Shown in pieces: positions 59,247 to 63,869 of a stretch of DNA of 64,000 bases; position 1 is the first letter of the stretch, and each line of letters starts with the position of its first letter. Source of the DNA: Polycladomyces abyssicola (GTDB lineage: Bacteria > Bacillota > Bacilli > Thermoactinomycetales > JIR-001). The stretch covers positions 608,001 through 672,000 of the forward strand of contig NZ_AP024601.1 of assembly GCF_018326425.1 (NCBI RefSeq). The letters run 5' to 3'. A program made the translations under genes and the position numbers. A model generated the notes under the pieces. The model searched no databases. It was not told where the DNA came from and saw only the letters and a program-made list of their open reading frames with translations.

Positions 59247-59480
59247 ATGCAAGTAGTGGTGTATTCCAAGCCGCATTGCATTGAATGTAATGTATTGAAA
59301 CGCTTTTTGCACGATTATGGCATTGCATATGAAGTGCGGGATTGTGCCGCCCATCCCGAATATCTGGAGGAAGTGAAAGCGATGGGATTCTTGGGCGTCC
59401 CGGTCACGGTGGTAAATGATACGGCTGTCCAAGGACTTCAGCCAGACGAGATCTTGAGATTGTTGGGGCGTAGCGGGTGA
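59247..59480 (+). CDS. Glutaredoxin-like protein
   Basis: A 77-residue thioredoxin-fold protein with redox motif CIEC (residues 11-14) after VVVYSKPH, and the cis-proline in GVPVTVVND. It is close to NrdH or monothiol/dithiol glutaredoxins of Bacillales. It may reduce ribonucleotide reductase or bacillithiol disulfides. GAAAGGAGG is 7 bases before ATG. Confidence 0.88.
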   Translation: MQVVVYSKPHCIECNVLKRFLHDYGIAYEVRDCAAHPEYLEEVKAMGFLGVPVTVVNDTAVQGLQPDEILRLLGRSG

Positions 59481-59564: not shown

Positions 59565-60605
59565 TCACTGTCTCTTTTTTCGTTTCATTTTTTGCTTCAT
59601 TTTTTGTTTCATTTCCCGCAATTGTTTACGGGTTTGCCGTTCCCACGCTTTGAGGTGGGGATAGGGGTCAAAAGAATAAATGGTTCGACCGTTGAATTTG
59701 TACAAGCCGTAATGCAAATGGGGCGGAAACTTACCCGAGGTGCCCGGCGGACCATAACCGGAAGAGCCAACGTATCCGACCACATCGCCCGGTTTGACGA
59801 TGTCACCTTGTTTCAATTTTTTGCGGAACCCATTCAGGTGGGCGTAATAGTGGTAATTGTTGTATACGTCGCGGATGCCCAGACGCCAGCCGCCGTATTT
59901 GTTCCATCCCATCAATTCGATATAGCCGTAACAGGTACTGAGAACGGGGGTGCCGTAATTGGCAAAGATGTCCGTCCCTTCATGGATGCGAAGACCTCCC
60001 CACCCTCGTCTGTCTCCCCAGGTGCTGTGGTAGGTATAGTTGTATTGCAGCGGGATGGGAAAAACATGTGCATCCAATTTCAATGTGTCGAATTTGGCAA
60101 AGATCTTGGCGATATGCGTAATGGTATCTACTGCGATGGGTTGGTGGTAGTACCGCCACAATCCAGTACGGATCGCATCTTCATCCGTTCCGAGTTGAGA
60201 CAGGAAACGGGCCACGGTGTACAGAACATCGACAGGATCGTGACGATTCGCTTTTCCGTCACCATTGCCGTCACGTCCGATGCCCCCGAAATAGTGAATG
60301 GAGACTTCCATGTTATCCTCTTGGTCCGGGTTGATCACACCGGCCCAGCTTTCGGCGGGAATGTGGATGGCCAGCCATCCTTTTTTTCGGGGAAGATCAC
60401 GACGCACTTTTTGCAAGTTGCGTTCGTATTGATCCATGGCCGCCAGATAATACCAGGGGAGTCCGGTTAACATTTCCACATTTTTAAATACTTGTTTCCG
60501 CCAATCTGTTTCCGCGTGGGGGTTTTTTGCCGCCGCGGATGGGAATGTCAACGCGAGCGTTAGGGACATTACCATGCAGAACGCCAGGAACCTTCGCATC
60601 TGCAT
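59565..60605 (-). CDS. M23 family peptidoglycan endopeptidase
   Basis: A 346-residue exported protein. The signal peptide is residues 1-26 (LAFCMVMSLTLALTFPSAAA). A middle domain with GGIGRDGNGDGKANRHDPVDVLY follows, a Ca-loop and lytic-transglycosylase-like segment. The C-terminal M23 (LytM) domain has HEGTD and PHLHYGLY zinc ligands. A Lys/Arg/Met-rich tail (about 18 residues) may bind wall polymers. A role in wall or cortex remodelling is likely. ATG 60605 with AGGAA upstream. Confidence 0.85.
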   Translation of the reverse strand: MQMRRFLAFCMVMSLTLALTFPSAAAKNPHAETDWRKQVFKNVEMLTGLPWYYLAAMDQYERNLQKVRRDLPRKKGWLAIHIPAESWAGVINPDQEDNMEVSIHYFGGIGRDGNGDGKANRHDPVDVLYTVARFLSQLGTDEDAIRTGLWRYYHQPIAVDTITHIAKIFAKFDTLKLDAHVFPIPLQYNYTYHSTWGDRRGWGGLRIHEGTDIFANYGTPVLSTCYGYIELMGWNKYGGWRLGIRDVYNNYHYYAHLNGFRKKLKQGDIVKPGDVVGYVGSSGYGPPGTSGKFPPHLHYGLYKFNGRTIYSFDPYPHLKAWERQTRKQLREMKQKMKQKMKRKKRQ

Positions 60606-60702
60606 CACCATTTCCTGCTTGATTGATCATTTGATAGTGTGAGTGTTTTCGAGCGGAATCATGGTGGTATTTTCTGGTTTTTGTTTCGGGGGAGGGATTA
60701 TG

Positions 60703-61770
60703 ATGCACGAAACGGATGCTGAACACCTGGATCCGGAAATGGTGGAGATCGCATGCAATCTGGACGACATGAGCCCTGAGTGGTGCGAACATGTAATGAA
60801 TCGATTGTTTGCGTCCGGAGCCCGTGACGTGTGGATAGTTCCGATCATCATGAAGCGGGGGCGGCCCGGTGTGACATTGCATGTTTTGGTAAGTGAGGAA
60901 CACCTGAACGAGGTCAAACGTGTGTTGTTCTTGGAAACCACCACATTGGGAATACGGTGGCATCCGGTAACCGTGCACCGATTGGAACGGACGTTTCACT
61001 CGGTGAAAACCCCTTGGGGGACGGTACGGGTAAAAGTCGCAACCCATCAAGGGGAAATCGTACAGTTTGCTCCGGAATACCGGGATTGCCGCGCAATTGC
61101 CGAAACTGGCGGGGTACCCCTGAAACAAGTGATGAAAGCGGCAGAAATGGCTTGGATCGCTTCGTTGCCTGATGAGCAACGAAAGAAATGGATCGGTGAT
61201 CATCCAACAGGGAAAGGGGAAGTTGCAATGGGAGGGGAAGGGATGAATACGGATTTGCGGTATCCCATCGGTCAATTTGAAAAACCGGACACCATTACAA
61301 CAACGCATGTGCAACAGTGGATCGACGAATTGGACAGTTCAGCCGAGCAGCTTCGTCATGCGGTGTCGGGATTGACGCCCCAGCAGTGGGATACGCCTTA
61401 TCGACCGGGTGGATGGACTGTCCGGCAAGTGGTGCATCATGTGGCGGATGCTCAGATGCACAACTATATCCGATTCAAACGGGCTTTGACCGAAGAAGAA
61501 CCGGAAGTATATGTATGGGAGCATGACGGGTGGGCCGAGATGGCGGACTCACGCACCGAATCGCCGGAGGTTTCCTTGCAATTGATCGAGGCACTTAACC
61601 GTCGTTGGGTAGTGATGTTGCGCTCACTGAAAGCGGCTGACTTCAAGCGTACGTTTTTCCATCCAGTGATGGGGCGCATGAGTCTGGATGAAGCATTGGG
61701 GTTGTTTGTCTGGCATATTCGACATCATGTGGCTCAGATCACGCATTTGCGTCAACGGATGGGATGGTGA
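60703..61770 (+). CDS. LarC2 domain fused in frame to YfiT/BstA-like DinB protein
   Basis: A 355-residue frame. Residues 1-145 are the C-terminal half of LarC (DPEMVEIACNLDDMSPEWCEHVMNRLF, then GARDVWIVPIIMKRGRPGVTL), a nickel-inserting cyclometallase domain. From about residue 181 the frame is YfiT (bacillithiol-transferase family, DinB fold), with TVRQVVHHVADAQMHNYIRFK and WHIRHHVAQI His ligands. A strong GGAGGGG precedes an internal ATG at 61243, so YfiT may also be made separately. ATG 60703 follows GGAGGG with spacing 6. Cognate LarC1 is at 62363, on the opposite strand. Confidence 0.8.
   Translation: MHETDAEHLDPEMVEIACNLDDMSPEWCEHVMNRLFASGARDVWIVPIIMKRGRPGVTLHVLVSEEHLNEVKRVLFLETTTLGIRWHPVTVHRLERTFHSVKTPWGTVRVKVATHQGEIVQFAPEYRDCRAIAETGGVPLKQVMKAAEMAWIASLPDEQRKKWIGDHPTGKGEVAMGGEGMNTDLRYPIGQFEKPDTITTTHVQQWIDELDSSAEQLRHAVSGLTPQQWDTPYRPGGWTVRQVVHHVADAQMHNYIRFKRALTEEEPEVYVWEHDGWAEMADSRTESPEVSLQLIEALNRRWVVMLRSLKAADFKRTFFHPVMGRMSLDEALGLFVWHIRHHVAQITHLRQRMGW
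61243..61770 (+). CDS. YfiT-like protein from internal start (alternative product)
   Basis: This internal ATG has GGAGGGG at 61231-61237, 5 bases upstream, and gives the standard YfiT start NTDLRYPIGQFEKPD and length (175 residues). The predicted metal-dependent DinB-fold enzyme transfers bacillithiol. It is in frame with the LarC2 reading frame and is listed as a probable second translation product. Confidence 0.6.
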   Translation: MNTDLRYPIGQFEKPDTITTTHVQQWIDELDSSAEQLRHAVSGLTPQQWDTPYRPGGWTVRQVVHHVADAQMHNYIRFKRALTEEEPEVYVWEHDGWAEMADSRTESPEVSLQLIEALNRRWVVMLRSLKAADFKRTFFHPVMGRMSLDEALGLFVWHIRHHVAQITHLRQRMGW

Positions 61771-61825
61771 GCGTCGGCGGAATTACAGGCTCAGGAACCC
61801 ATAATGGAAGTAAAGGGGTGACGTT

Positions 61826-62227
61826 TCAGCGATGCTCTGGCGCGCGAAAAGAGCCACCCGATTCGTGGTGAGAGATCTGCTTTCTGTAAACGAGGTCAGT
61901 CCGTTTGTTCCGACTGGCTGATTTTTTTACTAGCCGGTCGTATTGCATGCGAAACAGACGGATGACGCGATCCACGTCTTCCTCTTTGCGGATCCAGACA
62001 CTGACCCAACCGGAATCGGGATAGATATGATGAGGTTCCGCTTCCCCGTTCGCCACCAGCTGATCGTGAACGGACCGAGAAAACGGAAGGTCAGCCAACC
62101 GGTCTTCATGCAAATGGCCCAATTCCTTTCCCCCATAGCGAAATTCAATTCCCCCGAAGCGGTGCGGCGCTTCACTGACTCCCGGCCAAGCGGACAACGT
62201 CTGGCGGATGCGATTAGCGACATTCAT
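61826..62227 (-). CDS. DUF5519 (luciferase-like domain) protein
   Basis: A 133-residue protein whose core HRFGGIEFRYGGKELGHLHEDRLADLPFS and SGWVSVWIRKEEDVDRVIRLF match DUF5519 proteins called luciferase-family in databases. The HLHED and EPHHIYPDSGWV segments hold conserved His. The function is unknown. ATG 62227 is used, with GGAGGGG about 10 bases upstream. It lies between the two LarC pieces. Confidence 0.75.
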   Translation of the reverse strand: MNVANRIRQTLSAWPGVSEAPHRFGGIEFRYGGKELGHLHEDRLADLPFSRSVHDQLVANGEAEPHHIYPDSGWVSVWIRKEEDVDRVIRLFRMQYDRLVKKSASRNKRTDLVYRKQISHHESGGSFRAPEHR

Positions 62228-62362
62228 CCTGCACAAGCCCCTCCTCAATGGATTGTTGTTGGTACAGTACCCAAGTCAAAAAACAACGGTTGATCATCAG
62301 CAAAGCTTGTGCGCCGGTACGAAGTTCATACCGGTATGTGTAGTGGTGGCATGTAGAAAGGT

Positions 62363-63091
62363 TTAGCGGTTCCCGAGTATCACGCGCAATACATTGGGTC
62401 GGTCCGGCAGGTCGCGCATGCCTGCCCCGTAACCGATCCGTTCGACGGTCATGTCGGGAACGGGGCCCCATTGTTCCGTCAGTGCCGTCAAAATGCCCGC
62501 TCCCGTAGGCGTGGTCAATTCAAAGGGCAAAGAGGTGGAACGGATGGGATATCCTTTCATCAGTTCCAGCGTGGCCGGGGCTGGAAGCGGATAAACCCCA
62601 TGAGCCATGGCAGCTTCGCCATTCCCCAGTGGCGAAGGCGACGAAGAGATCCTGTCCGGATTGAGTTGATCCAATGCCAAAGCAGTTCCGACAATATCGA
62701 CAATCGAGTCGATGGCGCCTACTTCATGGAAATGGACCTCATCGAGCGCAATTCCATGAATGCGGGCTTCCGCCTGCCCGATCCGTTTAAAGATCTGAAG
62801 GCTCCATAAAACGGCCTTTTCCGGCAAATCAGCTGATTTCAGCATGTCGACAATCTCCCGGTACCGACGATGGGGATGTCCCGTTTGTTCGGACTCTGTG
62901 ATGATTCGAACGGCTCGGGCGGAAATGCCTTTTTTCACTGTGTGGGTCCATTGCAGTTGAAACGGTTCCAGCGGAAGAGTTTGCAACTGTTGCTCGATCA
63001 ACAAGGGATCGGCACCGGCGTCCACCAATGCAGCCAGCGCCATGTCGCCGGCGATTCCGGAGAACGGGTCAAAGTGCAGGATTTTTCCCAT
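62363..63091 (-). CDS. larC: Nickel-pincer cofactor biosynthesis protein LarC1
   Basis: A 242-residue protein equal to the N-terminal (LarC1) half of LarC. It begins GKILHFDPFSGIAGDMALAALVDAGAD, has VHFHEVGAIDSIVDIVGTALAL, and ends RPNVLRVILGNR followed by a stop exactly at the usual domain boundary. LarC inserts nickel into the pincer cofactor of lactate racemase LarA. The matching LarC2 half is not downstream but on the other strand at 60703. GAGGGA lies 8 bases before ATG; it overlaps larB by 23 bases. Confidence 0.88.
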   Translation of the reverse strand: MGKILHFDPFSGIAGDMALAALVDAGADPLLIEQQLQTLPLEPFQLQWTHTVKKGISARAVRIITESEQTGHPHRRYREIVDMLKSADLPEKAVLWSLQIFKRIGQAEARIHGIALDEVHFHEVGAIDSIVDIVGTALALDQLNPDRISSSPSPLGNGEAAMAHGVYPLPAPATLELMKGYPIRSTSLPFELTTPTGAGILTALTEQWGPVPDMTVERIGYGAGMRDLPDRPNVLRVILGNR

Positions 63092-63869
63092 GAGCGATGT
63101 CCCTCATTTCTGTCGACTCAACTTGACTGCGGTGGATCAGTGCGGCGTAATAGCCGGCGCCGAAACCATTGTCAATATTGACGACGGCCACCCCTGCCGC
63201 ACAGGAGTTGAGCATGGTCAATAGTGGAGCCAAACCGTTCAAATGTGCACCGTATCCCACACTGGTCGGAACGGCCACGACGGGAGCAGAGACCAATCCC
63301 CCCACCACGCTGGGAAGCGCTCCTTCCATACCTGCAACCACAATGATGGCGTTGGCTTTACGCAGGACAGACAGTTGATCGATCAGCCGATGCAATCCTG
63401 CCACGCCTACATCGTAGACGCGTTCGACCGGGCTACCGAGAAACTCTGCCGTACCTGCCGCTTCTTCCGCCACCGGCAGATCGGCTGTTCCCGCACAGAC
63501 GACGGCGACAAAGCCAGGTCGCATGGTTTGCGGACGTTCCGGCGGCCACCAGCGAAGCAACCGGGCGACGTCGTCATACTCCACATCGGGTGTGACGTTT
63601 TGTACCGCATCCGCTTGTTCACGTGTGACACGTGTGGCCAACACAGGCTTTCCCGATGCCTGCAGTCGACGAAAAATGGCCGCAGTCTGGACTGGTGTCT
63701 TACCTTGGGCGAAGATGATCTCCGGAAAACCGGTTCGCCGGGATCGGTGGAGGTCGACGCGAGCGAAGCCCAGTTCATCAAACGTGGCCAATTGTTGACG
63801 GGCTTGGTCCACCGAACATCTTCCCTCTGCGACCGCATGCAAAATCTCGGTCAACCTGTCCATGGTCAC
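63069..63869 (-). CDS. larB: Nickel-pincer cofactor biosynthesis protein LarB
   Basis: A 266-residue carboxylase/hydrolase of the LarB (PurE-like) family that carboxylates nicotinic acid adenine dinucleotide. Visible features: GFARVDLHRSRRTGFPEIIFAQGKT, TADLPVAEEAAGTAEFLG, and VAGMEGALPSVVGGLVSAPVVAVPTSVGYG, with VNIDNGFGAG near the end. GTG 63869 overlaps the larE stop (GTGA), implying coupling; ATG 63863 is an alternative. It is followed by larC1 in the same operon. Confidence 0.92.
   Translation of the reverse strand: MTMDRLTEILHAVAEGRCSVDQARQQLATFDELGFARVDLHRSRRTGFPEIIFAQGKTPVQTAAIFRRLQASGKPVLATRVTREQADAVQNVTPDVEYDDVARLLRWWPPERPQTMRPGFVAVVCAGTADLPVAEEAAGTAEFLGSPVERVYDVGVAGLHRLIDQLSVLRKANAIIVVAGMEGALPSVVGGLVSAPVVAVPTSVGYGAHLNGLAPLLTMLNSCAAGVAVVNIDNGFGAGYYAALIHRSQVESTEMRDIAHGKNPAL

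Follow-up and report, generated by a model that had tools for sequence, protein, structure and literature searches.

A reading frame that joins LarC2 to a YfiT-type bacillithiol transferase in Polycladomyces abyssicola

The DNA considered here, hereafter the window, is a stretch of 64,000 nucleotides (contig NZ_AP024601.1, positions 608,001 to 672,000 of the forward strand) from Polycladomyces abyssicola JIR-001, a thermophilic bacterium of deep-sea sediment whose genome is a hybrid assembly of Nanopore and Illumina reads (PMC8210696). That genome (G000) comprises 3,197,230 bases in one contig. Near the end of the window, the frame that encodes LarC2, the C-terminal part of the nickel-insertion protein LarC, runs on into a YfiT-type bacillithiol transferase, and the question that the locus raises is whether this is one gene and, if so, whether its two halves have anything to do with each other. 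In this study, we show that a two-domain protein is encoded and that the joint is retained in a second species of the genus. On balance we think it probable, if well short of assured, that the gene is a stop-loss fusion confined to the genus, with domains that work independently, the joint being tolerated rather than selected.

The fused frame and its two domains

The frame is free of stops from 60643 to 61770 on the plus strand and, by the frame listing and its translation, yields 375 amino acids from GTG 60643 and 355 from ATG 60703. The latter is likely the start of the fusion gene, behind the Shine-Dalgarno-like GGGGGAGGG, which pairs with what we take to be the 16S tail (anti-Shine-Dalgarno) at -11.8 kcal/mol. 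This energy was equalled by 0.8% of 261 internal ATGs, drawn from the window's mechanical open frames of at least 250 codons on both strands; in the congener G002 it is -12.2 to -12.7. The features of the gene are these:

60688..60696, plus strand: Shine-Dalgarno-like GGGGGAGGG, preceding ATG 60700/60703
60703..61770, plus strand: LarC2-YfiT fusion gene, 355 codons plus stop; open frame, also fused in G002
60715..61134, plus strand: LarC2 domain (C-terminal part of nickel-insertion protein LarC); PF01969 positions 237-375 of 375, NF052512, Foldseek 6bwo
61198..61248, plus strand: linker, residues 166-182 of 355 (about 17), predicted disordered, pLDDT <50
61213..61221, plus strand: internal Shine-Dalgarno-like AAAGGGGAA, preceding ATG 61228
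61231..61237, plus strand: internal Shine-Dalgarno-like GGAGGGG, preceding ATG 61243
61243..61770, plus strand: YfiT (BstA-type bacillithiol transferase) part, NF009807 full length; 175 amino acids if read from ATG 61243

The sequence-only reading of this locus had stated that no stop separates LarC2 from YfiT, and this holds, since the frame is uninterrupted and both domains score above curated cut-offs. LarC2 matches NF052512 at 154.6 bits (cut-off 50) over positions 2-118 of 118 (residues 15-131, numbered from 60700), and YfiT matches NF009807 at 221.3 bits (cut-off 160) over positions 1-172 of 172 (residues 186-356 in the same numbering). The product sizes that had been predicted, 355 and 175 residues, are correct on translation, and the tryptic peptide GEVAMGGEGMNTDLR spans the joint. 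In the AlphaFold2 model, 284 of the 355 residues reach a pLDDT of at least 90 and form two well-predicted domains on either side of the low-scoring linker; the pTM is 0.54, so that the model does not predict how the two domains sit relative to each other. The top two PDB sequence matches of the fusion are 1rxq (B. subtilis YfiT) and 6bwo (LarC2), and the five best fold matches of the model are chains of 1rxq, 6bwo and 6bwq.

The YfiT half is 47-48% identical to 1rxq, with a TM score by target of 0.95-0.96 (Foldseek, predicted model). According to excerpts of PMC5815605, B. subtilis YfiT is BstA, a metal-dependent bacillithiol transferase with H67, H160 and H164 at its metal site; these align with H246, H338 and H342 of the 355-residue protein, so that the window's protein shares with this family a full-length match and all three metal-site histidines. 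The other YfiT rows examined are mostly free proteins of about 175 amino acids, whereas here YfiT is the C-terminal half of a fusion.

The LarC2 half aligns full length with LarC, which according to excerpts of PMC11796402 carries out CTP-dependent nickel insertion into P2TMN (nickel-inserting cyclometallase, PF01969), and has the same fold (TM by target 0.88-0.89 against 6bwo/6bwq; Foldseek, predicted model). Unlike LarC, it is encoded on the strand opposite to a separate larC1 gene, it carries YfiT at its C-terminus, and it has MKR for MKK. Residue 52 (window 60856-60858) is Arg, not Lys, in both fusions, which read MKRGRP where the motif is MKK.RP elsewhere, the lysine pair being a regularity observed on relatives in this analysis rather than a curated criterion. 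Of the 77 different LarC2 stretches compared, some of them cut pieces, 69 carry KK and two KR, and six fall outside the pattern (two cut pieces of the fusions, two short pieces, and two that retain KK). The change in both fusions could indicate an altered LarC2 function.

A sequencing or assembly error that deleted a stop codon would give the same picture, and Nanopore reads did go into the assembly. However, Illumina reads were used as well (PMC8210696), and the genome of another species, G002, whose protein is 90% identical, shows the same open joint. We regard such an error as scarcely credible, and an artefact was ruled out on the second genome. The comparison of the junction in relatives, which had been proposed as a check, was therewith run: G002 retains the fused frame, and the notion that homologues all keep two separate genes fails there. 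With two full-length domains and its retention in G002, the fusion is more than a chance open frame. A scan of 60400-62400 for promoters and terminators returned sites no more numerous than in shuffled sequences.

Distribution of the joint

At E 0.001, a search with the fused protein matched 24 of 41 genomes, and both halves were spanned only in G000 and in G002, where the frame runs for 376 amino acids with no stop. The third congener (G001) gave no match to LarC2 or to YfiT. For the peptidase gene that adjoins the fusion, G001 offered two weak matches (E 1.9e-4 and 4.8e-4); for the lipoyl synthase gene, which lies beyond larE, it offered none in a search run without a positive control. As neither of these two flanking genes is matched convincingly, G001 seems to be without the whole region and is therefore not informative on the joint.

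LarC2 is present in 6 of 42 genomes of the order. Across 398 genomes of the class it scored above cut-off in 103 and YfiT in 139, and among the matches listed the two lay in one frame only in G000 and G002. In the phylum, 398 genomes were searched, G000 included; the fused protein matched 233 of them at 1e-8, with G002 absent from the matches, and G000 alone covers both halves, again among the matches listed. When 32 genomes were paired from listed matches, larC2 and yfiT adjoined in G000 and G002 alone; in the closest of the other pairs they are 85 kb apart. We also scanned genome_contigs, in which records near the window's genome were possibly left out: the fused protein gave 17 pattern matches and no true relative, and the best 80 of 589 YfiT relatives, taken with 2 kb flanks, had no LarC1, LarC2 or LarB by single-sequence phmmer.

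Among the matches listed, then, a YfiT tail on LarC2 is found only in two of the three genomes of the genus. The earlier remark that no LarC2-YfiT fusion is known is borne out to the extent that none was seen outside the genus in the searched genomes, among the matches listed. A literature search returned no paper on such a fusion, most subscription papers lying outside its reach; two papers that mention both LarC and YfiT appear to concern other subjects, and the excerpts of PMC11796402, PMC7583248 and PMC9283937 make no mention of a split or fused LarC.

Linker, internal starts and the two halves at work

Between G000 and G002 (NG86), dN/dS is 0.18 for LarC2, 0.12 for YfiT and 0.21 for residues 151-184, and it rises to 0.47 in codons 168-183 (numbered from 60700), where there are 2 synonymous and 4 other changes; the linker also holds an in-frame indel of one codon (3 nt). 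The linker thus appears to evolve almost freely and the joint to be without clear selection, a neutrality that has to be read from 6 substitutions in 15 codons because there are only two genomes. We rejected the conservation of the open frame as a sign of selection. Stop codons arise from 4 of the 162 single changes in 18 linker codons, and an unselected linker would remain open with a probability of 0.63 at 0.35 substitutions per site (0.51-0.77 by chance alone for 0.5-0.2 per site). The open frame therefore means that the fusion predates the split of the two species and is not proof of its usefulness.

The strong internal ribosome site that had been noticed at 61231-61237 before ATG 61243 is present and credible, and a stronger one precedes ATG 61228. 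For GGAGGGG and ATG 61243 the pairing energy is -10.9 kcal/mol, equalled by 1.5% of the 261 internal ATGs; for AAAGGGGAA and ATG 61228 it is -12.6 kcal/mol, equalled by 0.8%. At the matching places in G002 the values are -7.3 and -8.4. By comparison with 1rxq, ATG 61243 yields the N-terminus usual for the YfiT family. A free YfiT of 175 residues is likely made in the window's species and would be less clearly so in G002. One could go further and suppose that the arrangement is a translational one, in which the internal ribosome sites supply most of the YfiT and the long product is a minor one or undergoes cleavage in the linker. The rarity of such pairing energies among internal ATGs, the N-terminus of the product from ATG 61243 and the predicted disorder of the linker would all suit this, but the sites are weaker in G002 and LarC2, having no stop, cannot be made without reading on; we consider it rather unlikely. 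A second LarC2 was sought in G000 and none was found, the match being single genome-wide. Since LarC2 lacks a stop codon and a second copy did not turn up, any LarC2 made must read through into YfiT. The species is thereby a natural test case for the action of LarC1 and LarC2 in trans and for the tolerance of LarC2 towards a folded domain at its C-terminus.

Between the gene and the end of the window lie the following:

61826..62248, minus strand: luciferase-domain protein (PF17648), between the fusion gene and larC1
62363..63091, minus strand: larC1, convergent with the fusion gene; TIGR00299 209 bits, PF01969 positions 1-234 of 375
63069..63869, minus strand: larB, NF033503 293.8 bits
63866..64000, minus strand: 3' end of larE, continuing outside the window (L040:4367-5248, TIGR00268 337 bits)

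In L. plantarum, LarC1 and LarC2 are joined by a -1 frameshift. This is impossible in the window, where the two lie on opposite strands, and no full-length LarC is found there, either as one chain or frameshift-joined (larC1 at 62363-63091, minus; larC2 from 60703, plus). As LarC1 is encoded opposite to LarC2, LarC must work as two chains. Two LarA relatives in the genome score above the cut-off for NPN-dependent isomerase group 22, so that a user of the nickel-pincer cofactor exists, and a gene for BshC (bacillithiol synthase) is present, so that bacillithiol is probably made. A frame resembling the luciferase-domain protein lies at the same place in G002 (L042:6195-6650, minus), the PF17648 scan itself having covered the window, and a small glutaredoxin-like protein is encoded at 59247-59480 (plus), nearest to NrdH at 72 bits (below the cut-off of 86).

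The pathway in G001 has a different look. In this genome the larC1 frame carries a long tail and LarC2 is absent (L041:9420-10609 and L122), LarB matches fall in two short frames only, and of the LarA copies one is intact and one shortened; judged from these genes, its nickel-pincer pathway looks decayed. It might be supposed that the lar pathway is decaying in the genus as a whole, that LarC2 is on its way out and that the fusion is a symptom; the state of these genes in G001 and the change of MKK to MKR in both fusions would be in agreement with it. Yet LarC2 retains a dN/dS of 0.18, and LarB, LarC1, LarE and both LarA copies are intact and above cut-offs in the window's genome, which makes this explanation highly improbable.

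The sequence-only reading had called the gene a possible bifunctional fusion that could link cofactor maturation to thiol chemistry. The first part stands insofar as a protein with two intact domains is encoded; the proposed link finds no support, given the disordered linker, the lack of clear selection and the YfiT tails on unrelated proteins. Were there functional coupling, the tethered bacillithiol transferase would serve nickel-pincer synthesis, for instance through the protection or repair of thiocarboxylates or through nickel shared by LarC2 and YfiT at its three-histidine site. That the only LarC2 match of the genome bears the YfiT tail, that the fusion is retained in two species and that genes of both pathways are present would favor such a role. 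Two-domain DinB-fold thiol transferases are also known: in excerpts of PMC5815605, LmbV and EgtB have a second domain thought to set substrate specificity, and the window's protein, likened to them by description alone, is likewise a two-domain chain with a DinB-fold transferase. Against coupling are the disordered linker with its pTM of 0.54, its nearly free evolution, the fusion of YfiT to unrelated enzymes as well, and the 30 other genomes with both families in which, among the matches listed, the genes do not adjoin. We consider coupling improbable, and its most specific form, in which YfiT is a bacillithiol module dedicated to a split nickel-pincer cyclometallase and bacillithiol helps to make, protect or repair the NPN cofactor, somewhat more so.

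Other YfiT tails bear directly on this point. In two genomes of the class, G256 and G176 (loci L117 and L118), a GNAT AAC(6')-like protein is joined in frame to the start usual for YfiT, the GNAT parts scoring 188 and 190 bits against a best-model cut-off of 400 and so not being that named allele. An upstream open stretch of at least 100 codons was seen at five of the best 80 of 589 YfiT loci in genome_contigs. By Pfam, the part upstream of YfiT is DJ-1/PfpI in L139, from a Bryobacterales MAG, and GrpB in L211, from Cohnella endophytica; L141 and L194 gave no domain there, and the remaining stretch, L138, counts just 71 codons from a start codon onward. As in the window, the upstream domains of L117, L118, L139 and L211 are in frame with the usual YfiT start, and all four are unrelated to LarC2. 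It seems that YfiT is captured by whatever gene lies upstream, and its occurrence as a tail on unrelated proteins more than once weakens the case for a meaningful partnership with LarC2.

For a stop-loss fusion of independent domains, which we prefer, speak the complete domains, the G002 frame, the single LarC2, the dN/dS contrast, the disordered linker, the genes for LarB, LarC1, LarE, two group 22 isomerases and BshC, the recurrence of separately encoded LarC2 in Bacilli, the YfiT tails elsewhere and the 30 other genomes, paired from listed matches, with non-adjoining genes; against it are the survival of the fusion beyond the split of two species, MKR for MKK in both, and the fact that there are two genomes only. 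A yfiT gene would have arrived directly behind a stand-alone larC2, whose stop codon would then have been lost in frame, leaving a gene in which a short flexible linker ties LarC2 to YfiT. By homology, LarC2 and LarC1 would act in trans to place nickel into the pincer nucleotide used by the two LarA-type isomerases, and YfiT would be an independent metal-dependent bacillithiol transferase in a cell with a bacillithiol synthase gene. Free YfiT would probably be made as well, from 61228 or 61243.

LarC2 in other Bacilli

Among the matches listed, the combination of domains was found in one genus only, and LarC2 in this pathway is more often joined to LarC1. The wider pattern, with split convergent larC1 and larC2, extended LarC2 and YfiT tails, may serve the field more than the single fusion. 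The class search gave 105 LarC2 places above cut-off, in frames of at least 387 amino acids (64), of 216-386 (24) and of at most 215 (17), and DNA was examined for all mid-length and short frames and part of the long ones. The mid-length frames comprise the two fusions, 20 N-terminally extended LarC2, a LarC1-LarC2 at a contig end (L093), and L087. The last (L087:1909-2919, genome G056) is a 337-residue frame in which a LarB part leads directly into LarC2 with no LarC1 between.

In the extended LarC2, the N-terminal region is very roughly 145-235 amino acids long. A separate convergent larC1 lies within the fetched stretch in 16 of the 20, and none was found there for L088, L089, L090 and L092. 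Seven further places from the longer frames are three of the extended kind, each with a convergent larC1, and four full LarC; over the extended set as a whole (L073-L086, L088-L092, L094, L128-L130), a separate convergent larC1 is present in 19 of 23. Pfam scans of nine of the 20 gave PF01969 alone above cut-off. In two of the nine the match also takes in some of the LarC1 portion of the profile, beginning at position 145 for L078 and at 171 for L074, and inspection by eye likewise suggested a relation to LarC1. The alignment of the N-terminal region with LarC1 by hhalign reached just E 0.14, and structure comparison listed rows for the LarC2 part only. From these traces, the N-terminal region may be the degenerate remnant of a LarC1.

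In the 17 short frames LarC2 occurs with no LarC1 in frame, L096 being cut by a contig end; those of L095, L101 and L110 overlap a larC1 frame that is read from the same strand. Stand-alone LarC2 of Bacilli (such as L097, L103, L105 and L111) have a frame of their own and the same N-terminal start region as the window's LarC2; unlike it, they stop soon after the LarC2 core and have no YfiT. Three of the 17 (L103, L105 and L111) are convergent with larC1 as in the window, LarC1 being spread over two frames in L105. Since larC2 facing larC1 recurs in Bacilli, the window fits this pattern, and the YfiT tail is its peculiarity.
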